DNA of 64,000 nt from a virus. The notes beneath the pieces are model-generated. The model made no database searches. It saw only the letters and a list, made by a program, of their open reading frames with translations, and had not been told where the DNA came from. Shown here piece by piece: positions 14,237-62,420 of this stretch. The stretch spans positions 62,001-126,000 of IMG/VR virus record IMGVR_UViG_3300026097_001223. One strand, given 5' to 3'. Numbering within the stretch: position 1 is the stretch's first letter; every line of letters starts with the position of its first letter. Both the position numbers and the translations under genes were made by a program.

Positions 14237-15330
14237 ACTGTAACTATGCTGACCAAGGATTGTACATAGGCAGTACGCCCACGGGCAGAACACAGATTGC
14301 CATGTGCTGTTGGCAGCAAAAGCAAGTAATCCATGAACCTGTGAGCATGCAACATCCGCACTTGATAGAGATGAGAAACCTAGACATGCCATCGCAGTGT
14401 AGTCCTTATTGCAGTGAACCAGGGCATGTAGCAAATGAACGGGAACGGTGTCAACAAGATCCTTGGTGGAGCACTGGTGTTAAGATTAAAAAACTGCATC
14501 TTGAGCAGAGCTTGATATGTAATCTAGCCTGTATCAGTTGTAGTACACTGTACAGCAGTCGTTGGAACCAATGGTACAGAGAATTTGTTCCTGATGCAGA
14601 TCTCATCGAACTAAAACAACAACCAGAGTCTGTGTGGCAACATCTTGATCTAACTGAAGTTGAACATGTGCACTTCACCGGTGGCGAGCCATTGCTGAAT
14701 CCTGACAATATTAAGATTTTACAACATCTAGACAGCATTGGGCAACTTGAAAACACTGCTATCAGTTACTGTACCAATGGCACAGTGATGCCAGATTCCG
14801 CATTGCTTGAACTGTGGTCCAAGGCAAAATGGACAAGATTGTTTATCAGTCTCGACGGTGTTGGCAGCACGTTTGAATACACACGCTGGCCTGCTGATTG
14901 GCACACTGTGCGCACCAACATAGAAAAGTTTAGAAGTATCTCGGGCCCTTGTATACTGCTAGAAGTAGATGCAATTGTAGGAATACACAATCTTTGGAAC
15001 ATGGCAGAATTCTATCAGTGGTGGCTGGATCACTGTCAAACTGGTAATCAAGGTGACCCTAGTCAAGTGTTTGTGCGCAGTATTGAGCCCAGCAGTTATG
15101 GAGGGCGAGTGTTAAGTTTGAAAAATTTACCAACTGAGTTGGCAGACTCGGCTAGATCAACTATACTAAGCGTAGAATCTGTTCCAGGAGCACATAGTTT
15201 GTTACAAGATATAAGTACTACACCAAGTACAGAATGGATACAGTATCTAGATAAACTGGACGAACAACGTCAATGTGATTGGCGGACAAGTTTACAAGGC
15301 CCAATAACAACCGTAGGTAGCAACACTTGA
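14233..15330 (+). CDS. Radical SAM protein 1, twitch/SPASM-like cysteines N-terminal
   Basis: A 365-residue radical-SAM enzyme. The core [4Fe-4S] motif CxxxCxxC is C96-C100-C103 (CNLACISC) and the SAM-binding GGEP follows (FTGGEPLLNP). Ahead of the core lies a second cysteine set, C25-C26 and C56 with C60, like the auxiliary-cluster half of a twitch or SPASM domain but at the N-terminus. The gene is wedged between primase and helicase with 4-nt overlaps on both sides, so it is co-expressed with replication genes. The substrate is unknown. Confidence 0.85.
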   Translation: MNCNYADQGLYIGSTPTGRTQIAMCCWQQKQVIHEPVSMQHPHLIEMRNLDMPSQCSPYCSEPGHVANERERCQQDPWWSTGVKIKKLHLEQSLICNLACISCSTLYSSRWNQWYREFVPDADLIELKQQPESVWQHLDLTEVEHVHFTGGEPLLNPDNIKILQHLDSIGQLENTAISYCTNGTVMPDSALLELWSKAKWTRLFISLDGVGSTFEYTRWPADWHTVRTNIEKFRSISGPCILLEVDAIVGIHNLWNMAEFYQWWLDHCQTGNQGDPSQVFVRSIEPSSYGGRVLSLKNLPTELADSARSTILSVESVPGAHSLLQDISTTPSTEWIQYLDKLDEQRQCDWRTSLQGPITTVGSNT

Positions 15331-16733
15331 ACCAAGACTACAGTACTGAAATACAAAAACTTTTTATTGACATTGTGTTACATGACGCACCCAGCTATGT
15401 GCGTGTCCAGAACATCTGGAATCCAGACAACTTTGACAAAAGTTTACAACCAGCGGCTGAGTTTATACAAGATCATGTAAACAATCATCAAACTATGCCA
15501 GAGCGTAATCAAATTGGAGCCGTGACCGGCTTACGTTTTCCAGAGATCACTGATCTCAACGAAGGGCACTTGGATTGGTTTTTGGGCGAGTTTGAAAAGT
15601 TTACCAAACGTCAAGAATTGGAACGTGCTATTCTCAAAAGTGCCGACTTGTTAGAGAAAGGCACATTTGACCCAGTGGAAAAATTGATCAAAGATGCTGT
15701 GCAAATCTCTCTCACCAAGGATCTTGGCTTAAACTATTTCGAAGATCCTAAAGGTCGCTTGGCAGCATTAAAAGACAACAACGGACAGAATTCAACAGGT
15801 TGGCCTGCACTGGACAAAATGTTATACGGTGGATTCAACCGAGGAGAACTACAGATCTTTGCAGGTGGATCAGGTTCAGGCAAGAGTTTGTTTATGCAGA
15901 ATCTAGCATGCAATTGGATAGAAGCAGGACTCAATGGTGTATACATTACACTGGAACTCAGTGAAGGGTTGACAGCCATGCGCATAGACAGTATGTTAAC
16001 CAATACTGCTAGTAAACAGCTATTCAAAGACATCGACACTGTGGAAATGAAAGTGAAGATGATGTCAAAGAAAAGTGGACATCTACAGATTAAGTATTTG
16101 CCCGCACAGAGCAACGTTAATGACATTCGGGCGTTTATCAAAGAACTCCAGGTAAAAACCGAAAAGCAGGTTGACTTTATGTGTGTAGACTACCTAGACC
16201 TGCTTATGCCAGTTAGTGCCAAAGTATCGCCGAACGATCAGTTTGTAAAAGACAAGTATGTTTCAGAAGAACTGCGTAATCTGGCAAAAGAATTAAACAT
16301 ACTGTTTGTAACAGCGTCGCAGTTGAACAGAGCCGCAGTAGAAGAAATTGAATTTGATCACAGCCATATCGCAGGCGGTATCTCTAAGATCAATACAGCA
16401 GACAACGTGTTTGGTATTTTCACAAGTCGTGCAATGCGAGAGCGTGGTAGATATCAGATACAGGCAATGAAAACACGTAGTTCCAGTGGTGTTGGTAATA
16501 AAGTGGATCTTGAGTTTGATATGGACAGTTTGCGTATCCGAGATCTTGGCGAAGATGCACAAGAATCCAGCAGTCCGTCGAGCAATATAATGAACAGTAT
16601 CAAAAGCAAAAGCTATGTTGATCATTCCAGTGATAACGACAACGAAGAATCAGCAGATACTGGTAAAGCGTCTGGCGAAGTCGAATCAACTAAACTTAGG
16701 AAGCTGCTTAACACTATTAAAGATTCAAGTTAA
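15327..16733 (+). CDS. Replicative DNA helicase (gp41/DnaB family)
   Basis: A 468-residue RecA-fold helicase of the T4 gp41/DnaB family, which unwinds the fork ahead of the polymerase and recruits primase. Residues 1-130 form the helical N-domain. Walker A GGSGSGKS is at 180-187, then VYITLELSEG, the Walker B-like DFMCVDYLDLL, and the ASQLNR motif. The C-terminal 60 residues are Ser/Asp-rich and probably disordered. The start is a TTG overlapping the previous stop (CTTGA). I see no better start, but its initiation should be treated as uncertain. Confidence 0.93.
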   Translation: MNQDYSTEIQKLFIDIVLHDAPSYVRVQNIWNPDNFDKSLQPAAEFIQDHVNNHQTMPERNQIGAVTGLRFPEITDLNEGHLDWFLGEFEKFTKRQELERAILKSADLLEKGTFDPVEKLIKDAVQISLTKDLGLNYFEDPKGRLAALKDNNGQNSTGWPALDKMLYGGFNRGELQIFAGGSGSGKSLFMQNLACNWIEAGLNGVYITLELSEGLTAMRIDSMLTNTASKQLFKDIDTVEMKVKMMSKKSGHLQIKYLPAQSNVNDIRAFIKELQVKTEKQVDFMCVDYLDLLMPVSAKVSPNDQFVKDKYVSEELRNLAKELNILFVTASQLNRAAVEEIEFDHSHIAGGISKINTADNVFGIFTSRAMRERGRYQIQAMKTRSSSGVGNKVDLEFDMDSLRIRDLGEDAQESSSPSSNIMNSIKSKSYVDHSSDNDNEESADTGKASGEVESTKLRKLLNTIKDSS

Positions 16734-16736
16734 TCA

Positions 16737-17855
16737 ATGACGGATTCGGTGCACTGTCCTATTATACACGGTGGGTTGCAACTGTATTTTAAAAATACAG
16801 ACAACGCCAGTGCACTGGCAAATCACTGTTGTTTACGTGGTGATCTTTTTCCTATCACTGCCGGCGATGCAGTTTGGAATGATTCTAGACTGTGCAATCT
16901 ACGAGCTATAAATCTTAAAGAACACTGGGACCAAGGCTGTGCAAATTGCCGCAATCTTGAACGCAGTGGACTAGAAAGCTTTCGCACTGGCATGCTTCGC
17001 AAATTCGGCAAGCGCACTGACCTACCGGGTCCTCAACGACTTGACCTAATGTTTGATACCAGTTGTAATCTTGCGTGTCAAACATGTGGACCTGATGCCA
17101 GTACCACTTGGCAAAAGTATCAACTGGAACACGGTGACAGAACACAGCCTGTTGATCCAATAAACCGCTATCAAGAAGTGTCAGACACTTTAAAAAACAT
17201 AGATCTTAGCTGTTTACAACAAGTGGTATTCTGCGGCGGCGAAACACTGTTAGGCGGTGCACACTGGCAGGTAGCCGAGCTGTTAACTGAACTAGCTGAC
17301 CCGTCGAGGATCACCCTGAGCTTTCAAACCAATGGCACACAACCAATATCAAGCCGGTATTATGAATTGTGTAACAAGTTTGATCTTGTGAAACTGCATT
17401 TCAGTTTAGACGCTGTGGAAGAACAGTTTGAATATCTAAGATGGCCGGCTAGCTGGACACAGGTAACTGATAACATGTCCGAAATTAGAGATACTGCACC
17501 TGCTAACGTAATGTTTCTTGTCGAGGAAACAGTGAGCATTTTTAACTACGTGAATTTGCCTAGATTAAAAACCTGGATAAAAAACAACTTCTCCACCAAT
17601 CGAGAAGGGGATGTCACCGACCACACAAGACATCTAGCCAATGGGTTGTACAGTTTAGAAAACATGAGCAATCAATATGTGACTGCCATGCGTGAAACTC
17701 AGTACGGCAGTTTAATTCCCGACAATCATTTTGAAAACATTGCAAAAATACATTCAATGATTGGTATGATCAATGTTCATGATCGTCGTAGAAAACACGA
17801 TTGGAAAACAGTGTTTCCTGAAGTGGTTGAGCATTACAGCGATTATTTAAAATAG
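16737..17855 (+). CDS. Radical SAM protein 2, N-terminal auxiliary cysteines
   Basis: A 372-residue radical-SAM protein. The core motif is C110-C114-C117 (CNLACQTC), and the glycine-rich motif is FCGGETLLG, with GGET in place of GGEP. An N-terminal cysteine pair C31-C32 and a CANC motif (C68, C71) match the arrangement in proteins 1, 3, 5 and 6. It begins 3 nt after the helicase stop and converges on radical-SAM gene 3, overlapping it by 13 nt. The convergent arrangement of two paralogs suggests local duplication and inversion. Confidence 0.85.
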   Translation: MTDSVHCPIIHGGLQLYFKNTDNASALANHCCLRGDLFPITAGDAVWNDSRLCNLRAINLKEHWDQGCANCRNLERSGLESFRTGMLRKFGKRTDLPGPQRLDLMFDTSCNLACQTCGPDASTTWQKYQLEHGDRTQPVDPINRYQEVSDTLKNIDLSCLQQVVFCGGETLLGGAHWQVAELLTELADPSRITLSFQTNGTQPISSRYYELCNKFDLVKLHFSLDAVEEQFEYLRWPASWTQVTDNMSEIRDTAPANVMFLVEETVSIFNYVNLPRLKTWIKNNFSTNREGDVTDHTRHLANGLYSLENMSNQYVTAMRETQYGSLIPDNHFENIAKIHSMIGMINVHDRRRKHDWKTVFPEVVEHYSDYLK

Positions 17856-18886
17856 TCAGCCCAGCCTGTTAGATAGTCTTCTATTCTTATGCCTTTTAAT
17901 TGATCTTGTCTTGCAATATCCTGCTTTGCATGCTCTAGTATGCTATAGTGTGGTATGCTGTCTACGCTGTGATCGAGATAGTGTATTGCATGCACTGGGT
18001 TTGTGTTTAACACTTCTGCATACATATCTGTGGTCATTACTCCTGGTCGATAGTAATCGGGTTCTTCGATGCTTTTTGCTAGATAAGGAATATCATTGTT
18101 ATCGAGCCAATCAAGAGTTTGATCAATGTAGCGAATGTTGAGATTGCTGATCATTACACTGGCACTGAGATTAGATGTTATTTGTTTATAGTAGGCAACA
18201 TTGTCTGAAAAGTCTGCCCATTTTACTGGATATCGCATGTATTCATATACCGGGCCAATACCATCCATGCTGATGCAAAGATTCAAGTTAGTAAATTGTT
18301 TCAGCAGGTTTTCTTGGTCTTGGTTAAGCTTAACCGAGGCATTCGTAACCATAGTAACAAATAGATCAGTACGTCCGGATTGTGTCAGTTTGTGCAACAC
18401 TCGCCAGTTTTGTTTTTCCAGCATTGGTTCTCCGCCTACCATGCTGAGGTATGCTATATTGTCCCAGTCTATTCCTACATCATTGATATCCTGCGTCATG
18501 TACTTTACTGGCAATCCTTCCGTGAACTGCCAGGCTGTGCTTGCTTCTGGTCCACATGTTACGCAAAGACCGTTGCAGAGATTACTGGTATACAGTTTTA
18601 ACATGTAGGTAGTTGTGTTGCCATCCACAGCATCTTCTGCTATTTTTTCTATATCTTTGTCTAACAACCAATCCATTGTGCTGTTGTGTGTTTGTCTTTC
18701 ACTGACAGCACCACGATCTTCTGCTCGCCAACAGGTGGCACATGCAGGATGACGTGCTCCATTTTTTATGCTATCCTGTACACTTGCTCGACTTGTGCCA
18801 CGAGGCCATCTACAGCATCCAATATTGTCGAAGGTCTGTCCGTCGGTTTCATAACAGTGAAAAGGAATAACGCAAAAAACATCCAT
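17843..18886 (-). CDS. Radical SAM protein 3, N-terminal auxiliary cysteines, late-type leaderless start
   Basis: A 347-residue minus-strand radical-SAM protein. The core CxxxCxxC is C104-C108-C111 (CNGLCVTC), the SAM motif is VGGEPMLE, and the N-terminal auxiliary set is C24-C25 with C49 and C52. On the minus strand its ATG is preceded by TAAATA and a 5-nt GACGC gap, the same layout as four virion genes in this window. Late, leaderless expression is therefore expected, and with it a possible role on virion or late host components. Start choice is supported by this promoter. Confidence 0.86.
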   Translation of the reverse strand: MDVFCVIPFHCYETDGQTFDNIGCCRWPRGTSRASVQDSIKNGARHPACATCWRAEDRGAVSERQTHNSTMDWLLDKDIEKIAEDAVDGNTTTYMLKLYTSNLCNGLCVTCGPEASTAWQFTEGLPVKYMTQDINDVGIDWDNIAYLSMVGGEPMLEKQNWRVLHKLTQSGRTDLFVTMVTNASVKLNQDQENLLKQFTNLNLCISMDGIGPVYEYMRYPVKWADFSDNVAYYKQITSNLSASVMISNLNIRYIDQTLDWLDNNDIPYLAKSIEEPDYYRPGVMTTDMYAEVLNTNPVHAIHYLDHSVDSIPHYSILEHAKQDIARQDQLKGIRIEDYLTGWADYFK

Positions 18887-32618: not shown

Positions 32619-33033
32619 CGTAGAACGAGCTAGAACACGTTCAGAAAAAATAGATGTAATTGAAAAAGCACTGATTGCTAGCAGATTAGGAAGTGCTAGT
32701 GCTCAGTGTTTTTTATACAATTGTTATCTCAGTTACAATCCAAATTATGTGTACTATATTAGACAAGTGCCTACAACCGCAAATCTATCGCATCAACCGA
32801 ATCCTTTTGTAAAATTTTGGGCACTGTGCGAAGCATTACACACTAGAAGCATTGTAGGAAAAAATATACAGATTGCAATCCTTGATACTAGTTCTAACTT
32901 TGACAGTCGTGTGTGGAATCAGATTTGTCGTGAAGTACTGCTCAAAAAGCTTGGACAAGGACTTACAACAAATATGTTAAATGCAGTACTGAAAAACACT
33001 GAGTGGGAAATACCAACAAAGCATGAACGTTGA
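32596..33033 (+). CDS. Stand-alone DNA ligase N-terminal domain-like protein
   Basis: A 145-residue protein that aligns by eye with the N-terminal DNA-binding domain of ATP-dependent DNA ligases such as T4 gp30: a helix (RTRSEKIDVIEKAL), an aromatic segment (YLSYNPNYVYYIRQVP), then WALCEALHTRSIVGKNIQIAI followed by WNQICREVLLKKLGQGL. There is no KxDG adenylation motif, so it cannot be a ligase by itself. The GTG start at 32596 is the first in-frame start and overlaps the small membrane gene. It overlaps radical-SAM gene 4 by 11 nt. Confidence 0.62.
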   Translation: MALDWVNDVERARTRSEKIDVIEKALIASRLGSASAQCFLYNCYLSYNPNYVYYIRQVPTTANLSHQPNPFVKFWALCEALHTRSIVGKNIQIAILDTSSNFDSRVWNQICREVLLKKLGQGLTTNMLNAVLKNTEWEIPTKHER

Positions 33034-33889
33034 TGCTGTTAAATGGTTACATGTAGAAGCTAGCAGTAGGTGTAATGCATGGTGTCCCGCATGCCCGAGA
33101 AACGTCAATGGATTTGGACTACGCCCTGGACTTGTGGAAACTGATCTTGATATAGACTCATTTGTAGAAACATTAAATGCATTGCCTAACCTTGAAGCTG
33201 TGCAGTTCTGCGGCAACGACGGTGACCCGATAGCACATAGAAATTTTATCGATTTAATTGATTTAATCCCAGACGATGTTTTTGTACAGATACACACCAA
33301 TGGCAGTTTACGTAACCGAGCTTGGTGGAAACAGCTTGCACAATCTCTGGAGTATCGCCGACATGAAATCTATTTTGGCATAGATGGACTAAAAGACACT
33401 CATAGGATATATAGACAAAACACTGATTGGAATAAAATTATAGCCAATGCCAGCGAGTTTATCAACAACAAAGGCACTGCTGTTTGGCAATTTATACCAT
33501 TCAAGCATAACCAGCATCAATTCATGGAATGCTACAGGCTCAGCCAACAGTTAGGGTTCCGTGATTTCAAGGTCGTGAAAACCTTTAGGTATCACAAAAG
33601 TCATGCAAGAGATTTCCGCACCGGCGAAGAGTACATGTTAGAGCCCAGTGATTTTTTTCTGGATATGTGGAATTCTAACAAGCCTGCAGAAGCACAGGAT
33701 TGTATGCATCTTTCTATACCGAGTGTGTATTTAGATGCACAAGGTCGAATCAGCGCATGCTGTTATCTAGCAGACAGCATTAATTTTAAAAATACCACAG
33801 AACTGTTTGCAAAATTGCAGATTGACAACAATGTAATTGCTAGTACGTCAACCTGTCAGTTCTGGTGTAGCGGATTAAGCGATAAATAA
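33023..33889 (+). CDS. Radical SAM protein 4, SPASM-like cysteines C-terminal
   Basis: A 288-residue radical-SAM protein. The core motif is at the very N-terminus, C17-C21-C24 (CNAWCPAC), followed by FCGNDGDP in the position of GGEP. The auxiliary cysteines are C-terminal: DCMHLS, then GRISACCYL and a closing TCQFWC. This canonical order contrasts with the other five radical-SAM proteins here, which have their CC...CxxC set N-terminal to the core. The start overlaps the ligase-domain gene. The substrate is unknown. Confidence 0.84.
   Translation: MNVDAVKWLHVEASSRCNAWCPACPRNVNGFGLRPGLVETDLDIDSFVETLNALPNLEAVQFCGNDGDPIAHRNFIDLIDLIPDDVFVQIHTNGSLRNRAWWKQLAQSLEYRRHEIYFGIDGLKDTHRIYRQNTDWNKIIANASEFINNKGTAVWQFIPFKHNQHQFMECYRLSQQLGFRDFKVVKTFRYHKSHARDFRTGEEYMLEPSDFFLDMWNSNKPAEAQDCMHLSIPSVYLDAQGRISACCYLADSINFKNTTELFAKLQIDNNVIASTSTCQFWCSGLSDK
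33883..33888 (+). promoter_or_regulatory. T4-type late promoter, 5 nt before ATG
   Basis: GATAAATA, then AACTT, then the ATG of the 33894 gene. It overlaps the stop of radical-SAM gene 4. Confidence 0.68.
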
Positions 33890-44581: not shown

Positions 44582-45658
44582 ATGCACCCACGTGTAGGGT
44601 TCTGTTGCAAGTATTTGCATCCAGATCAAACTCAATCTAAAAAGCTGTTAGAAGAAATTCAGCGCCCATTAACTGAACGGTGTACAACTGTGGCCTGGCT
44701 TAATCGTCAAACTCGCGAAGATGCAGAACAGCGTCTTTGGGATCTCATGGTTCATAACACACAGGCATGTTTGAATCTGGTAAACTATGTAGGAGGATTA
44801 CCAAATGAGCTTCGAATGGTTCGACTGGGTAGTAATCAGTTGCCTATGTACACTGAGCCTAGCTGGCGCTATTTTTGGCAGTTACCTAGTGTACGTGAGT
44901 ATTGCGAAAAAGCATTTGCTCGTGTCGGTGACGCCGCTCGTAGACAGAATGTTAGGATCAGCTTTCATCCTGGGCAGTTTTGTGTGCTTGCTAGCGATAG
45001 TGATAGTATTGTAGAACGCAGTATAGAGGAGTTTGAATATCATGCCGATATGGCCAGGTGGATGGGTTACGGTCGTTCCTTCCAGGACTTTAAAATCAAC
45101 GTACACATATCGGGTCGAAAAGGTCCACAAGGCATCAAAGAGGCTCTCCCAAGACTCAGCACCGAAGCACGAAACTGCATCACAATCGAAAACGATGAAT
45201 GCGGATGGGGATTGGATGCCAGCCTCGAATTGGCTAAAGATTTGGCGCTCGTACTAGACATACATCATCATTGGGTAAGAGAAGGCGAATATATTGATGT
45301 GGATGACGATAGGGTTAAGCGTGTTATTGACAGCTGGCGTGGTGTACGCCCTGCATGTCATTACAGCGTGTCAAGGGAAGACTACTTGGATGGGCATTCA
45401 AGCACGGTCCGGCCGGATATGGCTGCACTGCTTGCTGCTGGATACAAAAAACAAAAACTGAGAGCGCACAGTGATTTCTATTGGAATCATGCTGTGAGCG
45501 AATGGGCTGCTACGTTCAGTGAATACTTTGATATTCAGTGCGAAAGCAAGATGAAAAATCTAGCCAGTCACCCGTTTGCTAAAGACTATGTGATGACAGC
45601 GGAATCAACGTGCGAAAGTCTTCGTCGCGAATCCGATCTAGCTCTTTGTTATAGTTAA
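44582..45658 (+). CDS. uvsE: UV damage endonuclease UvsE (UVDE)
   Basis: A 358-residue UV-damage endonuclease of the UvdE/UvsE TIM-barrel family, which nicks DNA 5' of photolesions. Recognisable are MHPRVGFCCKY, the LPNELRMVRLGSN segment, and metal-ligand stretches ISFHPGQFCVLAS, IENDECGWG, LDIHHHW and RAHSDFYWNH. It fits a phage exposed to sunlight. The 3' end overlaps the convergent radical-SAM gene 5 by 80 nt. A hydrophobic alternate-frame ORF (44805-45014) is embedded in it. Confidence 0.92.
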   Translation: MHPRVGFCCKYLHPDQTQSKKLLEEIQRPLTERCTTVAWLNRQTREDAEQRLWDLMVHNTQACLNLVNYVGGLPNELRMVRLGSNQLPMYTEPSWRYFWQLPSVREYCEKAFARVGDAARRQNVRISFHPGQFCVLASDSDSIVERSIEEFEYHADMARWMGYGRSFQDFKINVHISGRKGPQGIKEALPRLSTEARNCITIENDECGWGLDASLELAKDLALVLDIHHHWVREGEYIDVDDDRVKRVIDSWRGVRPACHYSVSREDYLDGHSSTVRPDMAALLAAGYKKQKLRAHSDFYWNHAVSEWAATFSEYFDIQCESKMKNLASHPFAKDYVMTAESTCESLRRESDLALCYS

Positions 45659-46724
45659 CCTGTGTTTGCCACAGCGCAGGGTCAAACTTGTGCTGTGCAA
45701 TCTGCTTCCGAAGCTGTTCAAGCCATACACGGCTATCCTCAAAGCTTTCAACAGCAATAGTTTGATCTAAATTTTCTAGTACCATGGGTTTAAGATCGTC
45801 GGGCCAATTAACTGGATTCATAAACTCGGGCATCCACACAGATTTTGCAGTTTGCTTACATATATGTCCTCGGGCATGTTTTTCATGGCGTATGTCTGAT
45901 ATGTATTTTTGTAAAGGACCTAGATGCAATAGGTTGAGATTACTGACAGTGGTATTAAATACCACACTTTTTCCTACTTGAACAATCTTCTTGATATTTT
46001 TATCAACTTCTGTCCAGTTAGTGCCGTGTCTTATTATTTCGGCTTGTTCGCCTACAGCATCCAAACTGATTGCCCACGCTAGATAATATCCTAGCTTTTC
46101 TGACATTTCCTGCCAAAAGTCGTCAAACACACTGCCGTTTGTGATCATAACTATACGGCGATCCTTTTCTTTGGCGTTGGACAGTTGATACACAAGGTTT
46201 TTTACCTCGTCTATCAAGGTGGGTTCTCCACCGGCAAGTGTTACAATTTGCAGTTGTTCAATGTTGTCAGCAATCCAGGTTTGATTTTTGCTATTATTGA
46301 ATACCAACTTGCTGTTTACAGGAGGCTGTAGATTTTTTATATAGTCGCTTTGTTTTAAATCAGCTAACCAGGCACTGCTTGCACCTGCATAGCAACTACG
46401 ACACTTGAAATTACAAAGATTGTTACTGCGATAATCAAACTCAGTAATATTAGTTTCTGTATAAAAGTCAGGATGGTCCTCTAGACCTTTTTGTCTTGTA
46501 CTAGAAAACCCATTTTCTTCCTGTTTTTTGCAAAATCTGCAGTCGTTATCAACCTCGCCACGCAAAAACTTTTGTTGTAATTGCTCTAGTTCATCGCTAG
46601 CCAACCATTCGTCGATACTGCCAGTAAATCGTTTTGCGTAGCTACAGCAAGGTTTTACCCCATCGTGCTCGCTGTAAACACTGCGGAACGGCATCGGGCA
46701 ATACCATTGAGAATCGGACATCAT
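45579..46724 (-). CDS. Radical SAM protein 5, N-terminal auxiliary cysteines
   Basis: A 381-residue minus-strand radical-SAM protein. The core is C104-C108-C111 (CNFKCRSC), the SAM motif LAGGEPTLI, and the N-terminal auxiliary set is C26-C27 with C62 and C65 (CRFC). The C-terminal 26 residues lie in the 80-nt overlap with uvsE. It is the second gene of a two-gene minus-strand operon (ATGA overlap with the 46721 gene), which has a TAAATA element 24 nt before its first gene, so late expression is likely. Confidence 0.85.
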   Translation of the reverse strand: MMSDSQWYCPMPFRSVYSEHDGVKPCCSYAKRFTGSIDEWLASDELEQLQQKFLRGEVDNDCRFCKKQEENGFSSTRQKGLEDHPDFYTETNITEFDYRSNNLCNFKCRSCYAGASSAWLADLKQSDYIKNLQPPVNSKLVFNNSKNQTWIADNIEQLQIVTLAGGEPTLIDEVKNLVYQLSNAKEKDRRIVMITNGSVFDDFWQEMSEKLGYYLAWAISLDAVGEQAEIIRHGTNWTEVDKNIKKIVQVGKSVVFNTTVSNLNLLHLGPLQKYISDIRHEKHARGHICKQTAKSVWMPEFMNPVNWPDDLKPMVLENLDQTIAVESFEDSRVWLEQLRKQIAQHKFDPALWQTQVNYNKELDRIRDEDFRTLIPLSSHSL

Positions 46725-49690: not shown

Positions 49691-49917
49691 CACCCCAAGA
49701 AATATTTGAATATCGACTGAAATGGAAGCCTGGCACTTGTGTAGCTGTGCACAGTGACTTGGAAAATCGTGCTAAAACTTGGTGCAATAAAAACGTGCCC
49801 AAGCATCAGTGGACCACAGTAGAATACACAGATGTGTATGAGCATACCTACTGTTTTGAGTCTGTTGAGGCTGCAGAACAGTTTAACATAGAGTTTCAAG
49901 ATTGGATAACAAACTAA
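49687..49917 (+). CDS. Small hypothetical protein (76 aa)
   Basis: A 76-residue protein with N-terminal MTPQEIFEYRLKWKPGTCV and a C-terminal FESVEAAEQFNIEFQDW helix. The type is one I associate with T4-like marine phages. Its last codons overlap the TTG start of radical-SAM 6 by 16 nt. Confidence 0.7.
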   Translation: MTPQEIFEYRLKWKPGTCVAVHSDLENRAKTWCNKNVPKHQWTTVEYTDVYEHTYCFESVEAAEQFNIEFQDWITN

Positions 49918-51104
49918 GTTGCCCTTGGGCTGAACAAGGTTTAGCATTGCACAACACCGGCAGGGCTCTGCTGTGTTGTCACAGTCGTAGCTATTTAGAA
50001 GACGACAACGGTGATTGGATCTATTGGCACAGTCACACTCTTGATGATGCGTGGAACAGCAAAACACGTCATGAAATAATTGACAGTTTGGCACAAGGCA
50101 TTGAGCATCCAAACTGTGATGCATGTTGGCAAGAAGAACGTGTTGGCCGTAAAAGTCGTCGTATTGTAGCCAAGGAACAATTTGATTTGCCGCCGGCTGA
50201 CTCACCAAAACTAGTCGATCTTAAACTAGGCAACACCTGTAATCTTGCATGTACCATGTGCTGGCCTGAAGTAAGTTCAAAATGGCTTGCTGACTATTAT
50301 CATGTATACGAAGATCCAAATATTATCTACAGTGACTACAAACAACGCTGGGCTAGTATACAAAAAAGTTATGACCGAGAAAATCACCAGCTTTGGGACG
50401 ATTTAAAGCGCATTTTGCCAAATGCCGAACACTTGGATATTTTTGGTGCTGAGCCATTTTTGTTGGATAGACTATGGGATATACTAAAATGGAATGTAGA
50501 ATTAGGGCATAGCAAAAACCAAACTTTGCATATTAATACAAATACTACCATCTGGCGGGATGATTATGTTAATATCCTATCACATTATAAAAAAGTATCC
50601 GTGGATCTAAGCATAGACGCTACTGATCACTTATTTGAATACATACGTTATGGAGCTGAATGGCAGATTGTTCAAAAAAATATACAAAAATGGGCCGCTA
50701 TAAAAAAAACAAATAAAAATATTAATGTAGCACTGTGCGTGACTGTAACAAACACTAATGTGTTTGATCTAGATAATATATACTTAAAACTAAGAGAATA
50801 TGGTCTTGCCTTCTTCCTTAACATTGTTCATATGCCTGTGCATCAGTGTATTCGGAGTATGCCTAGCCAGCTGAAAACAATAATTAATAATAAATTACGA
50901 GATAATATTGACAACCTGGGATACAAACGTGAAGTAGAAAGTTTGTTAAATTTTATGATGCTGGACGACCCAGATCAAGAAGCCAATTGGCAAGAATGGT
51001 TGCGAAGCACATATGAGTTGGAAAAAAGAAGAGGCAATAGCTTGCGTAAGGCCGCTCCAGAATTTATCTCAGTGCTCGACCGACTGGGTTACCATCTTCC
51101 TTGA
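49902..51104 (+). CDS. Radical SAM protein 6, N-terminal auxiliary cysteines
   Basis: A 400-residue radical-SAM protein. The core is C113-C117-C120 (CNLACTMC), the SAM-binding motif is FGAEPFLL (GAEP instead of GGEP), and N-terminal auxiliary cysteines are C25-C26 with C72 and C75 (CDAC). The start is a TTG at 49902 inside the previous gene; the N-terminal auxiliary motif requires a start near here. The codon mix is more AT-rich in the C-terminal half. It converges on the 51064 gene, overlapping by 41 nt. Confidence 0.82.
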   Translation: MDNKLSCPWAEQGLALHNTGRALLCCHSRSYLEDDNGDWIYWHSHTLDDAWNSKTRHEIIDSLAQGIEHPNCDACWQEERVGRKSRRIVAKEQFDLPPADSPKLVDLKLGNTCNLACTMCWPEVSSKWLADYYHVYEDPNIIYSDYKQRWASIQKSYDRENHQLWDDLKRILPNAEHLDIFGAEPFLLDRLWDILKWNVELGHSKNQTLHINTNTTIWRDDYVNILSHYKKVSVDLSIDATDHLFEYIRYGAEWQIVQKNIQKWAAIKKTNKNINVALCVTVTNTNVFDLDNIYLKLREYGLAFFLNIVHMPVHQCIRSMPSQLKTIINNKLRDNIDNLGYKREVESLLNFMMLDDPDQEANWQEWLRSTYELEKRRGNSLRKAAPEFISVLDRLGYHLP

Positions 51105-54794: not shown

Positions 54795-55001
54795 ATGTAT
54801 AATTTGTCAGTTCTTGAAGACTACTGCGAACAGTTGCGATCTGATGCAGAACGCAAGGTAGAGTGGACACTGAGCGATCACATCTCGCTGGAACGAGCAG
54901 TGCGTGTTCGCAACAGTTTGTATGCTATAGCAGACGAAATTGAAGAAGTTATTGCAGGTATTCGGGTAGCCGATAAGTATCTGCATGAAGATGACTCGTA
55001 A
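54795..55001 (+). CDS. Small hypothetical protein (68 aa)
   Basis: A 68-residue acidic helical protein (LSVLEDYCEQLRSDAERKVEW, LYAIADEIEEVIAGI) with a GGAGAAG ribosome binding site. It lies between the small membrane gene and tctB, and overlaps tctB by 17 nt. Confidence 0.7.
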   Translation: MYNLSVLEDYCEQLRSDAERKVEWTLSDHISLERAVRVRNSLYAIADEIEEVIAGIRVADKYLHEDDS

Positions 55002-55431
55002 CAGAACTGTAGCGGCACTTTTTGCAGCTATAGCAGTTTACTTTTTTGTTTACAGCTTTCAATATCAACTAGGCAGTGCCAGTAGAATGGGCCCTGCCTA
55101 TTTTCCTATTATGACCAGTGTAAGTTTGTTTGCTGTGGCTGTGTGCATATGGCTGTTTGAAAACGATCATGCACCAGCCAGATTTGAATGGGACGTTTTC
55201 TCCGCAGGAGTGCCCATTGGTGCTATTTTGGTATTTGCAGTCAATCTTGAATTTCTCGGTTTTGCAATAACCACAATGTTGGTAACTCTGCTTACTGCTG
55301 TGAGCAAAGAAAACAGAAACCTACCACTCACACTGGGCACAGGCATTTTTCTAGTTGGCCTAGGTTGGGGAGTTTTTGTAAAGTTTCTTGATGTGTATCT
55401 GCCCATGTGGCCTGCTTTTTTATGGAATTAA
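54985..55431 (+). CDS. tctB: Tripartite tricarboxylate transporter TctB-like small membrane protein
   Basis: A 148-residue protein of the TctB family, the small membrane subunit of TTT secondary transporters. Four transmembrane helices can be placed (AALFAAIAVYFFVYSF, ITTMLVTLL, GIFLVGLGWGVF and the helix at 75-92), and the typical LGSASRMGPAYFPI segment follows helix 1. The ATG at 54985 is one option; 54991 is another. It is immediately upstream of tctA and overlaps it by 10 nt, as in bacterial tct operons. There is no tctC nearby. Confidence 0.88.
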   Translation: MKMTRNRTVAALFAAIAVYFFVYSFQYQLGSASRMGPAYFPIMTSVSLFAVAVCIWLFENDHAPARFEWDVFSAGVPIGAILVFAVNLEFLGFAITTMLVTLLTAVSKENRNLPLTLGTGIFLVGLGWGVFVKFLDVYLPMWPAFLWN

Positions 55432-56918
55432 TTGACAACTTATATCTAGGATTTGCAACTGCACTCAGTGTTGAAAATATTTTCTACTGTTTTGTGGGTG
55501 TGTTTTTAGGCACCGCTGTGGGTGTTTTGCCTGGCCTCGGACCGCTGGCTGCAATAACCATGCTGTTGCCACTTACATACAGTTTCAATGATCCAAGCAG
55601 TGCTATTATCATGCTTGCTGGCATCTACTATGGGTGTCAGTATGGAGGAAGCACTGCCGCAATTCTAGCAAACATTCCCGGCGAAAGCAGTGCAGTGGTC
55701 ACTGTGGTAGACGGTTATCAAATGACCAAACAGGGTAGAGCTGGCACTGCACTGGTAACAGCGGCACTGAGCAGTTTTTTTGCTGGCACTGTTGCTACAC
55801 TGTTTATTGCTGTTGGTGCACCTGCTCTAGCCGAGGTAGCATTTGCGTTCGGTCCGCCTGACTATTTCAGTCTCATGTTTCTGGGACTTATACTGGCAGT
55901 GGCATTGAGCACAGGCAGTGTGCTAAAAAGTCTAGCAATGGTGATATTTGGTGTACTGATCGGTCTTATTGGCACAGACGTTACCACAGGCGTTGCACGA
56001 TTTGATTGGGGTGTACCAGAACTGTTCGATGGCATTCCATTTGTGGTAATTGCAATGGGACTGTTTGGTTTTGCTGAAATCATGTACAACCTTGAAAATC
56101 CACATGTGCGACAATCACTGAATAATCAACAGCCCACTCTTAGGTTATCTAACAAAGAACTCAGGCGAGCCGCTCCGGCAACAGTTAAAGGCACTGTGGT
56201 CGGTAGCTTTCTTGGACTGTTGCCAGGCAGTGGAGGAATCATTGCTAGCTTTGCTGCCTATGCATTAGAAAAAAGAACCAACAAAAAACATCACAGTGAA
56301 TTTGGTAAAGGCGCAATCGAAGGTGTAGCAGCTCCCGAAAGTGCAAACAATGCTGGCAGTCAAACCAGCTTCATTCCCATGCTGGTATTGGGTATACCTA
56401 CTACTCCTATCATGGCACTGATGATAGCCGCACTCTTAATACACCATGTAGTGCCTGGTCCTCAGATAGTCAGCACCAATCCCGAAGTTTTTTGGGGATT
56501 GATTGCCAGTATGTGGATAGGCAATCTGCTGTTGCTGGTTTTGAATCTGCCGTTGATTGGTATTTGGATACGCATGTTAAATATAAGTTATAATATACTG
56601 TACCCAATTATACTGATATTTGCATGCCTGGGCGTGTATGTGGTCACCAGCAATGTTGTTCATGTATTAATGACCGTTCCTTTTGCAGTGCTGGGTTATC
56701 TGTTTAAAAAATGGGAATGTGAACCCGCGCCATTGATGATGGGATTCATAGTAGGAGCAGCCATGGAAGAACATCTACGCAGGGCCATGACCATCAGCAA
56801 AGGTGATTGGATGGTATTTGTGGAAAGACCTATCAGCGCCACACTGTTGGCTATCGCAACAGCATCTTTGGTTGTTGTGGCAATTTACGTTGCAAGGAGA
56901 GTGCGTGTACATTCGTGA
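55422..56918 (+). CDS. tctA: Tripartite tricarboxylate transporter TctA-like permease
   Basis: A 498-residue, many-helix membrane protein matching TctA. The family signature YYGCQYGGSTAAILANIPGE followed by VVDGYQMTKQGRAGTAL is clear near residues 60-95, and a second GLLPGSGGIIASFAAYAL segment is seen later, with MLVLGIPTTPIMALMIAALL. TctA with TctB imports tricarboxylates or other organic anions captured by a periplasmic TctC. A phage copy might be paired with a host TctC. The start at 55422 overlaps tctB; the GTG at 55407 is less likely. Confidence 0.9.
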   Translation: MELIDNLYLGFATALSVENIFYCFVGVFLGTAVGVLPGLGPLAAITMLLPLTYSFNDPSSAIIMLAGIYYGCQYGGSTAAILANIPGESSAVVTVVDGYQMTKQGRAGTALVTAALSSFFAGTVATLFIAVGAPALAEVAFAFGPPDYFSLMFLGLILAVALSTGSVLKSLAMVIFGVLIGLIGTDVTTGVARFDWGVPELFDGIPFVVIAMGLFGFAEIMYNLENPHVRQSLNNQQPTLRLSNKELRRAAPATVKGTVVGSFLGLLPGSGGIIASFAAYALEKRTNKKHHSEFGKGAIEGVAAPESANNAGSQTSFIPMLVLGIPTTPIMALMIAALLIHHVVPGPQIVSTNPEVFWGLIASMWIGNLLLLVLNLPLIGIWIRMLNISYNILYPIILIFACLGVYVVTSNVVHVLMTVPFAVLGYLFKKWECEPAPLMMGFIVGAAMEEHLRRAMTISKGDWMVFVERPISATLLAIATASLVVVAIYVARRVRVHS

Positions 56919-58916: not shown

Positions 58917-58944
58917 TTGACAAACAAGTTGTTTAGTGTAAACT
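58917..58944 (+). promoter_or_regulatory. Sigma70-type promoter for tRNA(CAU)/btuB region
   Basis: TTGACA at 58917-58922 and TAAACT at 58939-58944, 16-nt spacer, 11 nt before the tRNA. It may also drive the riboswitch and btuB by read-through, since I see no strong separate promoter between them. Confidence 0.65.
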
Positions 58945-58955
58945 ATAAACAAGTT

Positions 58956-59032
58956 GGACCTATAGCTCAGTTGGTTAGAGCAGTGAACTCATAATTCATT
59001 GGCCCCTGGTTCGAGTCCAGGTGGGTCCACCA
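58956..59032 (+). tRNA. tRNA with CAU anticodon (Met elongator or Ile2)
   Basis: A 77-nt cloverleaf with acceptor GGACCTA/TGGGTCC, anticodon loop CTCATAA (anticodon CAU), T-arm CCTGG-TTCGAGT-CCAGG and encoded CCA. The body around the anticodon and variable loop (GCAGTGAACTCATAA, TTGGCC) looks more like bacterial tRNA-Ile2 (CAU, lysidine-modified, reads AUA) than elongator Met, but I cannot decide between them by eye. Confidence 0.9.
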
Positions 59033-59080
59033 ACTTATTCATAGCTGCAACTCGTAGTGCATAACTAAAACTAGGTACAG

Positions 59081-59246
59081 TTGAGGTCACCGTGAACATA
59101 GAGATTCATGGGTAATCGGGGAAGCAGTAAATCTGCACTGGCCTTGCAACGGTAGAGCGACACTGGGTCGCGAGTCCGAATGCCGTCCTCAATATTCTGG
59201 TACCGCAGAGCACAAGGTACTGCTCTGACAACTTACAAAAAGGTAC
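59081..59246 (+). promoter_or_regulatory. Cobalamin riboswitch (B12-responsive leader) of btuB
   Basis: All main elements can be drawn. P1: TTGAGG (59081-59086)/CCTCAA (59187-59192). P3: GATT (59103-59106)/AATC (59114-59117). The conserved GGGGAA (59118-59123). P4: GCAG (59124-59127)/CTGC (59133-59136). P5: ACTG (59137-59140)/CGGT (59150-59153) with L5 containing CCTTGCAA. P6: GCGAC (59157-59161)/GTCGC (59167-59171). The J6/3 core GTCCGAATGCCG (59174-59185) resembles the CUCCGAAUGCC of Cbl-II riboswitches such as env8. P13: CAGAGCA (59206-59212)/TGCTCTG (59221-59227) with L13 CAAGGTAC; CAAGG complements CCTTG of L5. GTACC (59200-59204) can pair with GGTAC (59242-59246) at the Shine-Dalgarno, suggesting translational control. 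It precedes a B12-receptor-like gene, which fits. Confidence 0.9.
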
Positions 59247-59249
59247 ACA

Positions 59250-60860
59250 ATGAAAAAATCTATTCTCTCCATTGGCCTATTGGCCGTGTCTCTTTCTACG
59301 TCAGCAGAAACCACTGACATAACAATTTATGTTACTCGAACACCAGTTGAACAAAGCATTGACACCAGGAGTTATACTAGAGCGGACTCTTTAGAACAAC
59401 TGGAACAGTCTCCGGGTATTAATATTGTGCAGAGCGGACCGCGTGGACAAAATACCAGCATGTTTGCACGAGGCACAGAAAGTGACCATACACTGCTTGC
59501 TATCAACGGCATGCCTATCAAAGATCATAGCACTATATCTGGCAGTGATGACATTGGACAACACAGTTTGGCTGGTATTGATCAACTGTTGTTTATACGA
59601 GGTCCAGCCGGTAGCGCCTATGGGCCCAATGCTGTAGGAGGTGCTGTTGACTTTATCAGTCGCGGCACAGGCGACAGTGTATCAGCATCAACTGGTACCT
59701 ATGGTTATAAAAATCTGTATGGCAGTAAACGTTTTGCAAAGGATTCCTTTGCTGGTAGCATTGCTGTTGAAACAGAACGTGCCAATGGCATTGATGTTCA
59801 GGACAACGGTGATCAGGACAGCTACACCAAGAAAAACATAAACCTGTATGGCAGTTGGATGCTGGATCAAGGCGACTTGTACTTGAACTATATCCAGTCA
59901 GACAATAGCAGTGACCTAGATGGATGGAACGAAACCAGTAACTGGCAGTTTGATAACACACAACTTGGCTACGAAACACAAAGTGCTCGGATCGTCTACA
60001 ATCAAGCAAATCATAAACGCATCTATGATACTTCCAGTGTGTATCTCAGCTCTGACGCTAGACTGTTGACTGAAAAAACCTGGAATCAATGGACAGTGAG
60101 CCTAGAGCACAGCAATCATGAGTACGACAGCAACAGTCGAACTGAGCAAGGGGCAGCTGTTGCTTATAATGATCAGTGGCTAAGTGCCGAATTGCGATCC
60201 GATGACACTGAGCTAGGGTCATTTGCCAGCTGGAGACTGGGCGTTTCTCACAGTGGTTTGCGAGCCAGCGTCGCCAACGGATTTAGAACCCCCAGCCTCT
60301 ATGAAGTCTACGGTGATGATTTGTATGTAGAAGAAAACACAGGCCTGCAAGCAGAATATATCACTGCATATGAATTGGGATATAGAAACAGCTGGGTTGA
60401 TACTGCTTTGTTTTTCAACCAAGAAACAGACAGGATCACATACATCACTGATCCAGAGACCTATGTAGGACAGTACACAAACAACATCAAAGACACTGTT
60501 CGTACACACGGAGTTGAAACATCTCTTACCAAAACTGTGGACGATGTTACTGTGAATTACAACTATACCTATACCTGGAGTGATGCAGACAAGCTGAGAC
60601 AGCCAGCTCACATGCACAACCTTGCTCTTTTATATGGCAGTGTAACATATAGTGCACAGTATATAGGATCGCACCTGGACACTGACAGCAACACGTTTAC
60701 TACAGTGAACATGAATGATGTGCTGTTACAGAATTTGTCTTACAAGAAAAAATGGTTCACTGTGACGGTAAATAATATCACTGATCAACAGTATCAACGT
60801 CCAGATGGGTATCAACAATACGGACGCACTATCACATTAAAGGCAGATTATGAATTCTAA
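59250..60860 (+). CDS. btuB: TonB-dependent outer-membrane receptor, BtuB-like
   Basis: A 536-residue protein, shorter than E. coli BtuB (614). Signal peptide residues 1-19, a TonB-box-like ITIYVTRTP, plug motifs LEQSPGINIVQ, RGTESDHTLLAINGMP and RGPAGSAYGPNAVGGAVDFIS, a long beta-barrel, and the terminal Phe of outer-membrane proteins (ADYEF). It should import vitamin B12 across the outer membrane, with energy from host TonB. The ribosome binding site lies in the riboswitch expression platform. The next membrane gene overlaps by 11 nt, so both are under B12 control. Uptake of B12 or receptor replacement (blocking other phages) are both possible. Confidence 0.9.
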   Translation: MKKSILSIGLLAVSLSTSAETTDITIYVTRTPVEQSIDTRSYTRADSLEQLEQSPGINIVQSGPRGQNTSMFARGTESDHTLLAINGMPIKDHSTISGSDDIGQHSLAGIDQLLFIRGPAGSAYGPNAVGGAVDFISRGTGDSVSASTGTYGYKNLYGSKRFAKDSFAGSIAVETERANGIDVQDNGDQDSYTKKNINLYGSWMLDQGDLYLNYIQSDNSSDLDGWNETSNWQFDNTQLGYETQSARIVYNQANHKRIYDTSSVYLSSDARLLTEKTWNQWTVSLEHSNHEYDSNSRTEQGAAVAYNDQWLSAELRSDDTELGSFASWRLGVSHSGLRASVANGFRTPSLYEVYGDDLYVEENTGLQAEYITAYELGYRNSWVDTALFFNQETDRITYITDPETYVGQYTNNIKDTVRTHGVETSLTKTVDDVTVNYNYTYTWSDADKLRQPAHMHNLALLYGSVTYSAQYIGSHLDTDSNTFTTVNMNDVLLQNLSYKKKWFTVTVNNITDQQYQRPDGYQQYGRTITLKADYEF

Positions 60861-61338
60861 TATACGACTTTTTTTATTTTTAGCAGGGGCACTGTTTTTA
60901 TTTAGAATTGTGCCGCATCCTCCAAACTTTACACCTGTTATCGCGGCAACTGTGTTTGCCGCGTGTGCAGGACAGCGTTTTTGGGAAACCATGGCTGTGG
61001 TGCTACTGGCAATGTTTGTGAGTGATTTGTTTTTAGGATTACATGCTGGTATGCTGTGGGTATACGCCAGCCTGGTACTTGTGTTCGTGACCTCAAGGTA
61101 TATGAGTTTACTTGCAAGCACACTGATTGGACCTACAGTATTTTTTGTGTCTAGTAATTTTGCAGTATGGTTGAGCGGATGGTATCCTATGACCCTTGAA
61201 GGGTTGATTACTTGTTATGTGGCTGCCATACCATTTTATGCGACCAGCTTGACTGCGACAGTGTTCTATGTTATATTATTTAAAATAATGCAACGTTATC
61301 TCGCAGTAGCTCAGCAGGATAGAGCATCGGACTTCTAA
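60850..61338 (+). CDS. DUF6580-like multi-pass membrane protein, candidate B12 inner-membrane transport component
   Basis: A 162-residue protein with five to six transmembrane helices. The N-terminal FRIVPHPPNFTPVIAATVFA is a strong match for the DUF6580 signature, and SDLFLGLHAGMLWVYASL fits its second half. These proteins often sit next to B12-receptor genes and are suspected of cobalamin transport. It overlaps btuB by 11 nt, so it is under the same riboswitch. The last 13 codons (AVAQQDRASDF is the classic translation of a tRNA) run into the tRNA-Arg gene, so the true C-terminus may have been altered by tRNA insertion. Confidence 0.78.
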   Translation: MNSNIRLFLFLAGALFLFRIVPHPPNFTPVIAATVFAACAGQRFWETMAVVLLAMFVSDLFLGLHAGMLWVYASLVLVFVTSRYMSLLASTLIGPTVFFVSSNFAVWLSGWYPMTLEGLITCYVAAIPFYATSLTATVFYVILFKIMQRYLAVAQQDRASDF

Positions 61339-61376
61339 TCCGAGGGTCGCAGGTTCGAATCCTGCCTGCGAGGCCA
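61300..61376 (+). tRNA. tRNA-Arg (UCU)
   Basis: A 77-nt cloverleaf: acceptor CTCGCAG/CTGCGAG, anticodon loop CTTCTAA (anticodon TCT, reading AGA/AGG), T-arm GCAGG-TTCGAAT-CCTGC, discriminator G and CCA. It overlaps the end of the DUF6580-like gene by 39 nt. Confidence 0.94.
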
Positions 61377-61417: not shown

Positions 61418-61666
61418 ATGAACTTTTTTATCATAGTACTATTAAGCGGATCGGTCAATGGAGCCGAAGAGTATTTTATTGTAACTGATCCAACATTTGA
61501 AACCATGGAACAGTGCGCAGATCATGGCGTTAACAACCAAAGTTCAGTGTTACAGGGCATGTACAATGCTACGGGTAGAACAAACTGGGACACAATAGCC
61601 TGCGTTGATAAAGAAAGATTACAATACATGTTAAGAAATATAAAACCAGAAGGTATAGATGCATAA
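61418..61666 (+). CDS. Small exported protein (82 aa)
   Basis: An 82-residue protein with an ATAGGA ribosome binding site, a hydrophobic N-terminus that looks like a signal peptide (MNFFIIVLLSGSVNGA), then a cysteine- and Asp-rich mature part with two cysteines (CADHG and ACVDK). It is probably periplasmic. It overlaps nadE by 8 nt. Confidence 0.7.
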   Translation: MNFFIIVLLSGSVNGAEEYFIVTDPTFETMEQCADHGVNNQSSVLQGMYNATGRTNWDTIACVDKERLQYMLRNIKPEGIDA

Positions 61667-62420
61667 AACTCCAGAAAACATAAGCAATTGGATAAAAACC
61701 TACGCTGAAGATGCTGGACTCGAAACTCTAGTGGTAGGTGTAAGTGGCGGCATTGACAGTGCTGTAGTGAGCACACTGTGTGCAATGACTGGCATGAACA
61801 CAGTGGTAGTGAGCATGCCTATTAGACAAAAGGACGAGCAACATGAACTCAGTGTTGATCATTGTTTGGCATTGCTTGAAAGATTTCCAAATGTTCACTG
61901 GGACACTGTGAATCTCACTGAAGCGTTTGAACAACTAGAAACACTGTTTGCAAACACGCAATACAACAGTGAATTAGCATTTGCCAACAGCCGCAGTAGA
62001 CTGAGAATGATCACACTGTACCAAATTGCAGGAAGCACTCGCGGACTTGTGGTGGGCACTGGCAACAAGGTTGAAGACTTTGGCGTTGGGTTTTACACCA
62101 AGTATGGCGATGGCGGTGTTGACATTTCGCCCATTGCAGACCTAACAAAAACTCAAGTTTGGGAAATGGGAAAAACAATCGGCGTCGATCAACGCATCAT
62201 TGATGCCAAGCCCACCGACGGATTATGGGACGATGGTCGAAACGACCAGGATCAATTAGGCGGATTGACCTATTCACAATTAGAAGAAGCCATGCGCCTA
62301 GCAGATGCAGTGCGAGCAGGTGCTCCTCTAGAAGCGCATGAAAAACGACTGCTAGACAAGTACAACGAGATTCGCAAACCAAACCTGCACAAGATGAATC
62401 CAATTCCTGTATTTAAATGA
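61659..62420 (+). CDS. nadE: NAD synthetase (NadE)
   Basis: A 253-residue ammonia-dependent NAD+ synthetase. PP-loop SGGIDS at residues 29-34, then RSRLRMITLYQIAG, LVVGTGNKVEDFGVGFYTKYGDGGVDISPIADL and DGLWDDGRNDQDQLG cover the conserved NadE motifs. It turns NaAD into NAD+ with ATP. A phage copy may support NAD-demanding metabolism or restore NAD+ depleted by host anti-phage systems. It is in an operon with the exported protein before and the sulfotransferase after (4-nt overlap). Confidence 0.95.
   Translation: MHKTPENISNWIKTYAEDAGLETLVVGVSGGIDSAVVSTLCAMTGMNTVVVSMPIRQKDEQHELSVDHCLALLERFPNVHWDTVNLTEAFEQLETLFANTQYNSELAFANSRSRLRMITLYQIAGSTRGLVVGTGNKVEDFGVGFYTKYGDGGVDISPIADLTKTQVWEMGKTIGVDQRIIDAKPTDGLWDDGRNDQDQLGGLTYSQLEEAMRLADAVRAGAPLEAHEKRLLDKYNEIRKPNLHKMNPIPVFK

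Follow-up and report, generated by a model that had tools for sequence, protein, structure and literature searches.

Why would a phage carry a gene for a vitamin B12 receptor, placed behind a putative cobalamin riboswitch and joined to the gene of a small membrane protein? The window analysed here, a stretch of 64,000 bases, corresponds to bases 62001-126000 of the 182,329-base IMG/VR record IMGVR_UViG_3300026097_001223, and the contig encodes terminase, portal, major head protein, tail sheath, UvsX and clamp loader proteins that mark it as a T4-like member of the Caudoviricetes. On the strength of sequence comparisons, we consider it likely that the locus is a B12 acquisition operon of this T4-like phage, controlled by its own compact (class-II-like) cobalamin riboswitch, repressed at translation and used when B12 is scarce. 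A sequence-only reading of the same DNA had already described a tRNA followed by the leader, a BtuB-like receptor gene and a DUF6580 gene in one operon; this arrangement is indeed present, and the tRNA is a tRNA-Met. The locus is laid out as follows.

58917-58944, + strand: candidate sigma-70 promoter TTGACA-16-TAAACT (10/12 matches), just 5' of tRNA-Met
58956-59032, + strand: tRNA-Met (CAT), from tRNA prediction, upstream of the operon
59080-59193, + strand: predicted cobalamin aptamer (RF00174, independent model R1)
59200-59246, + strand: proposed expression platform, as read from the sequence
59250-60860, + strand: BtuB-like TonB-dependent vitamin B12 receptor, 536 aa (TIGR01779, PDB BtuB, structure model)
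60850-61338, + strand: DUF6580 (PF20221) membrane protein, 162 aa, whose start overlaps the btuB stop by 11 nt
61300-61376, + strand: tRNA-Arg (TCT), covering the last 39 nt of DUF6580

The candidate promoter could drive both tRNA-Met and the operon; it is a weak candidate, since sigma-70-like sites are not more numerous in the region than expected by chance. At the other end, the C-terminus of the DUF6580 protein (VAQQDRASDF) is encoded within the tRNA-Arg gene.

Such a contig is metagenome-derived and might be an assembly chimera or a mis-called bacterial sequence, but phage genes flank the operon on both sides across the 182 kb, base composition is 0.44 for btuB and 0.42 for DUF6580 vs 0.42 for the window, the same module turns up independently in numerous phage contigs, and the closest relatives of its btuB among the sequences compared are phage genes. 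We regard an artefact of this kind as extremely improbable, and bacterial contamination was ruled out by the phage gene context.

Elsewhere on the contig, TctB and TctA genes lie at window positions 54985-56918. Downstream of a second TctA comes the gene of a secreted 352-aa protein that has no Pfam match and might be a binding protein of the TctC kind (L003 16134-18656); judged from their sequences, these phage Tct genes are parts of a tripartite tricarboxylate transporter. Radical SAM matches are strikingly many, with seven proteins on the contig, of which two are just under the Pfam cut-off or match SPASM more strongly, and an eighth protein shows a weak match to the 4Fe-4S domain Fer4_12 (for the radical SAM and Fer4_12 proteins: window 14233-18886, 33023-33889, 45579-46724 and 49902-51104; L002 60-1091; L005 1004-2164).

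The first step is to establish what the leader is. Its assignment to the cobalamin family, first made from the sequence alone, is borne out by the Rfam covariance models, as RF00174 matches positions 59067-59205 (+ strand) over its full length (1-189) with 29.2 bits (E 1.2e-5 against all Rfam, 1.1e-6 over the 182-kb contig) and is the best-scoring family of clan CL00101 at this site. This score is slightly under the gathering score of RF00174 (31.5), so that a default Rfam scan misses the aptamer. A covariance model built from 13 aptamers of other phages, with the window excluded (R1), gave a single match in the 64-kb window, at 59104-59193 (E 0.0025). The structure of R1 comprises 19 pairs, with 94.7% of cells paired vs at most 46% when it is slid; 11 pairs are changed on both sides, and the covariation score is 0.559 vs 0.173 after shuffling, a value reached by 0 of 500 shuffles. 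A match to plastid ycf2 at the locus was discarded, being antisense to the tRNA and below its cut-off. The elements of the leader, all on the + strand, are listed by position.

59080-59086/59187-59193, + strand: P1
59090-59096/59105-59111, + strand: P2 (7 bp)
59117-59119/59183-59185, + strand: P3
59124-59127/59133-59136, + strand: P4
59142-59146, + strand: L5 CCUUG, proposed half of a kissing loop, complement of 59213-59217
59150-59152/59176-59178, + strand: P6
59157-59171, + strand: P7-like hairpin
59179-59185, + strand: J6/3 GAAUGCC
59200-59204, + strand: GUACC, which could pair with GGUAC at 59242-59246 (ribosome-binding site) or with GGUAC at 59074-59078 beside P1
59206-59227, + strand: P13 hairpin CAGAGCA-CAAGGUAC-UGCUCUG, from folding
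59213-59217, + strand: L13 CAAGG, complementary to L5 CCUUG
59237-59243, + strand: Shine-Dalgarno AAAAAGG, downstream of P13 and before btuB

Among the helices named by the sequence-only reading, P1, P3, P4, P6 and P13 were found again, whereas P5 shrinks to about 2 bp; the conserved strings GGGGAA and GTCCGAATGCCG of the core do occur in the leader. The 7-bp P2 and the P7-like hairpin come in addition to what had been described. Thermodynamic folding of the leader is not decisive (z -1.6). The P3-P6 core with its conserved GGGAA and J6/3 is present, as is the CCUUG/CAAGG loop pair. By J6/3 and by its compactness the aptamer resembles class II, yet its best family is RF00174 and it has a P2. 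Judged by its Rfam score, the predicted aptamer is a distant member of the cobalamin riboswitch family.

How this leader might act is suggested by known cases. When a btuB or env8 riboswitch binds cobalamin, P13 and the kissing loop between L5 and L13 become more stable, and this helps to conceal the ribosome-binding site (PMC10653944). The L5-L13 complementarity of the window, taken alone, is not above chance (shuffle p 0.24); the pairing is supported by its position and by co-variation in other phage leaders. The leader holds one GUACC and three competing GGUAC copies, and neither MFE nor partition-function folding gave a ligand-dependent change at the ribosome-binding site. Because of the loop match at p 0.24 and because folding singled out no switch, the expression platform is put forward as a hypothesis. 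Under this scheme, the leader would be open when cobalamin is short, and BtuB and DUF6580 would be made; BtuB at the outer membrane, with the TonB of the host, and DUF6580 at the inner membrane, probably as a solitary S-component-like carrier of B12, would then let the vitamin flow in. When cobalamin is plentiful, the aptamer would be bound and the kissing loop and P13 locked, which would make the ribosome-binding site less accessible and switch uptake off by repression at translation.

The receptor gene had been called BtuB-like from its translation, and this identity is upheld by profile, database structures and modelling. B12-receptor models rank first for the 536-aa protein (TIGR01779, E 8e-36), the solved structures nearest by sequence are all BtuB (PDB, E 8e-19), and the predicted structure (pLDDT 85) reaches a TM of 0.81 to E. 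coli BtuB, the top 12 PDB matches of the structure search being BtuB as well. The TIGR01779 equivalog cut-off is not reached (123.8 vs 599.7 bits); phage relatives of the protein are likewise far below it, and btuB of marine SAR11 and SAR116 is also under it. Asp190 and Asp224 are invariant among 39 phage and bacterial relatives and align with the E. coli BtuB residues Asp195 and Asp230, which belong to the calcium site. The closest btuB relatives among the compared sequences are phage BtuBs, with 33-34% identity.

The second protein matches PF20221 with E 2.9e-32 (112.6 bits vs a gathering score of 27; Pfam), and its model is all-helical with a pLDDT of 92.5. Good fold matches are limited to ECF S-components, namely 4huq_S (TM 0.54, probability 0.95), FolT 5d0y (TM 0.58/0.60) and RibU (TM 0.51), and the Foldseek E-values of these are not significant. 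The PDB gave no sequence match for this protein, the viral fold library no match for its model, and no paper on DUF6580 was found in the literature searched (subscription papers and preprints excluded). Its tie to B12, formerly a guess, is now backed by this S-component-like predicted fold, non-significant E-values included, and by bacterial operons: the order riboswitch-btuB-DUF6580, found in SAR11, SAR116 and further bacteria, links the protein to B12. As modelled, DUF6580 is probably an S-component-like B12 carrier of the inner membrane.

The sequence-only reading had implied that the unit was unique. This was wrong: dozens of viral contigs carry the module. Searches of IMG/VR, phages, plasmids and GTDB with the single BtuB or DUF6580 protein of the window were unproductive, whereas alignment-based searches were productive and retrieved DUF6580 in 80 IMG/VR loci (49 distinct proteins once near-copies were removed; loci bear L numbers below). 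A BtuB-like gene adjoins DUF6580 in 35 of these 80 loci, and DUF6580 stands alone in most others. The AdoCbl-II riboswitch RF01689 scores above the Rfam cut-off in 20 of the 80 records (58-93 bits). According to R1, the phage riboswitch directly precedes the module, except in L174 and L189, where it is located between the DUF6580 and btuB genes; in these two, the Shine-Dalgarno AAGGAG lies within L13, immediately before btuB, as expected from the kissing-loop mechanism known for btuB and env8HyCbl (PMC10653944). Most riboswitch-bearing phage loci have the order DUF6580-btuB; the L129 group, the L169 group and the window have btuB-DUF6580, and a third type consists of DUF6580 alone. No RF00174 match was found in 37 NrdB-related viral records scanned. 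A class-I B12-box pattern occurred at 21 loci of viral contigs, and the 17 of them that were checked contained no riboswitch supported by Rfam; the phage riboswitches seen here thus appear to be of the compact kind. Taken with the bacterial operons, these loci show at the level of sequence that aptamer, btuB-like gene and DUF6580 gene form a single compact unit, which is found again and again in phages and bacteria.

In many related phages, those of the L129 group, no riboswitch was detected with btuB-DUF6580, which implies that B12 control is not essential to the module. Upstream of the riboswitch-less btuB-DUF6580 pair, L129 (2690-3270) and its kin L130-L134 and L140 have a glutamine riboswitch (RF01739, over the cut-off), a manA RNA (RF01745, just under the cut-off), a hairpin that resembles a terminator, and a promoter-like sequence directly followed by the start of btuB. 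In another phage group (L186 and L190-L193), DUF6580 lies directly 3' of a NAD synthase gene that is related at 52% to the one at window 61659-62420.

BtuB is a classical receptor of phages and colicins, and together with the loci lacking a detected riboswitch this leaves some room for another use of the phage protein: it might alter superinfection, compensate for a host receptor lost at phage entry or serve as a decoy, the riboswitch having merely come with a bacterial operon. We find this unlikely, because DUF6580, an inner-membrane protein with no surface role, is kept with btuB or, in most other loci, without it, and because the riboswitch is retained and co-varies, and in some phages (L153, L182) stands upstream of DUF6580 without btuB. 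That B12 sensing is retained points to B12 as the point of the module.

The other question is whether the operon is of use to the phage at all. A tree of DUF6580 shows 8 changes of label between phage and bacterium, at least 5 of them forced by supported branches, and such frequent change indicates that the gene has been exchanged repeatedly between phages and bacteria. The window operon could then be a recent passenger, acquired by chance from a bacterium and neutral or decaying, as the entry of the DUF6580 3' end into a tRNA might also suggest; we judge this quite improbable. The reading frames are open and the presumed calcium-site Asp is conserved, whole phage clades carry the gene (e.g. 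15 and 9 rows of the tree), and insertions occur at several places of T4-like genomes, near head, tail and replication genes, all of which argues for a maintained function. Among 50 of the DUF6580-bearing records, 21 contained a T4-like portal gene, and the neighbours of many loci are T4-like genes for head, tail or replication that have relatives in the phage of the window.

If the preferred reading of a B12 acquisition operon holds, who would use the vitamin? The ribonucleotide reductase of the contig is NrdA/NrdB-like, and a domain search of the contig found no B12-binding domain. The earlier statement that any benefit must sit in host enzymes or at the level of the receptor still holds for this reason. 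The enzymes served by the imported B12 would be those of the host, with methionine synthase as the most plausible one, and the vitamin would in this way contribute to one-carbon supply for the synthesis of phage DNA and protein. Much of the life in the sea is limited by vitamin B12, which most bacteria there must take up from outside (PMC9296465).

The phage leaders also bear on an RNA of known structure. The leaders of L174 and L189 resemble env8HyCbl, the crystallised class-II cobalamin riboswitch of marine metagenome origin, and a 102-nt sequence taken to be that of env8HyCbl was used for comparison. Its core pattern occurs in 30 viral contigs, including those of L174 and L189, and an env8HyCbl-type riboswitch was found in 28 further contigs, with a BtuB-like gene downstream wherever the locus reaches. 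L290 and L302 match the full 102 nt letter for letter, flanks outside the search pattern included. L290 adjoins baseplate and tail-fibre genes and a BtuB-like gene, L283 and its kin (including L290) adjoin T4-like neck, baseplate or tail-fibre genes, and the L307 contig encodes a T4-like major head protein (E 1e-170). In these env8-type leaders, L13 holds the AAGGAG of the downstream gene, as in L174 and L189.

The bacterial set, obtained by alignment search of genomes, comprises 80 DUF6580 loci. R1 riboswitches were found in 20 of them, one of which (L255) is a stretch of phage-like DNA within an archaeal MAG, and RF00174 adds about 13 loci, placed within loci by mapping of contig ranges; in all, a cobalamin riboswitch accompanies DUF6580 in about 30 of the 80, and btuB adjoins it in 28. 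The SAR11 order, riboswitch-btuB-DUF6580, is that of the window, and SAR116, Ignavibacteria and others share it. L255 (NZDU01000048.1) looks like phage, as it repeats the phage locus L097/L182, and L203/L204 from a Neomarinimicrobiota MAG look like phage as well, with a DUF6580 match common to phage locus L143. DUF6580-first phage leaders and SAR11 leaders have a long conserved downstream expression platform in common. In the phage leaders L123-L168 and in L282, L260 and other SAR11 leaders, a conserved stretch of about 75 nt lies 3' of the AdoCbl-II aptamer (AGTCC-CTGT...GGCCAGGAAAAGTCTAGTTCT-CAA...GCAGTGGC in phage and SAR11 leaders), in which CCGCUGU can pair with ACAGUGG in competition with a start-codon hairpin. 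Whether B12 regulates SAR11 btuB was stated as unknown (PMC9296465); the riboswitch leaders that precede btuB-DUF6580 in SAR11 suggest that it does.

More broadly, we lean towards the view that marine T4-like phages widely carry uptake modules under B12 feedback, that DUF6580 supplies the inner-membrane B12 carrier so far missing in SAR11, other marine bacteria and their phages, and that env8HyCbl is a phage riboswitch controlling a phage btuB. The presence of the predicted riboswitch and the uptake genes in this phage and in dozens of its relatives suggests that viruses in the sea manage how the bacteria they infect are supplied with the vitamin; if phages bring receptor, inner-membrane carrier and sensor, viral infection would have a part in the marine vitamin economy, and the expression of phage genes would track the cofactor state of the cell with no need for a regulatory protein from the phage. 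Through the bacterial operons, DUF6580 acquires a role that can be tested, and the env8 match, if true, would show where in nature a structurally solved RNA belongs.

No description of a phage cobalamin riboswitch or of a phage riboswitch-btuB unit was found in the literature searched (again excluding subscription papers and preprints), and a Riboswitch Scanner survey of pelagimyophages reported no riboswitches (PMC7029224). Glutamine riboswitches occur with tmRNA in the OM43 phage Melnitz and the pelagiphage Mosig (PMC9004378); like the predicted one of the window, these are metabolite riboswitches in marine T4-like phages, but their ligand is another one and they are linked to tmRNA or phage genes, with no uptake operon. 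As in E. coli, a cobalamin aptamer lies in the btuB leader and the receptor has the same predicted fold, whereas identity to E. coli BtuB is about 22% by structural alignment, with the TIGR01779 equivalog cut-off unmet, and no BtuCDF genes were noticed in the phage, which has DUF6580 instead. DUF6580 resembles BtuM and solitary ECF S-components by its predicted helical fold, and differs in lacking a PDB sequence match and a significant E-value. Unlike the bacterial operons, the unit of the window is in a phage genome, its riboswitch differs in type from those of SAR11, and the BtuBs nearest to its own are from phages. Finally, it departs from env8HyCbl/RF01689 by its P2 and P7-like hairpins, by RF00174 as best family and by a Shine-Dalgarno downstream of P13, which env8-type leaders have in L13, whereas it shares with them a compact form without the large class-I periphery, J6/3 GAAUGCC, the proposed L5-L13 kissing loop and a position upstream of btuB in phage contigs.
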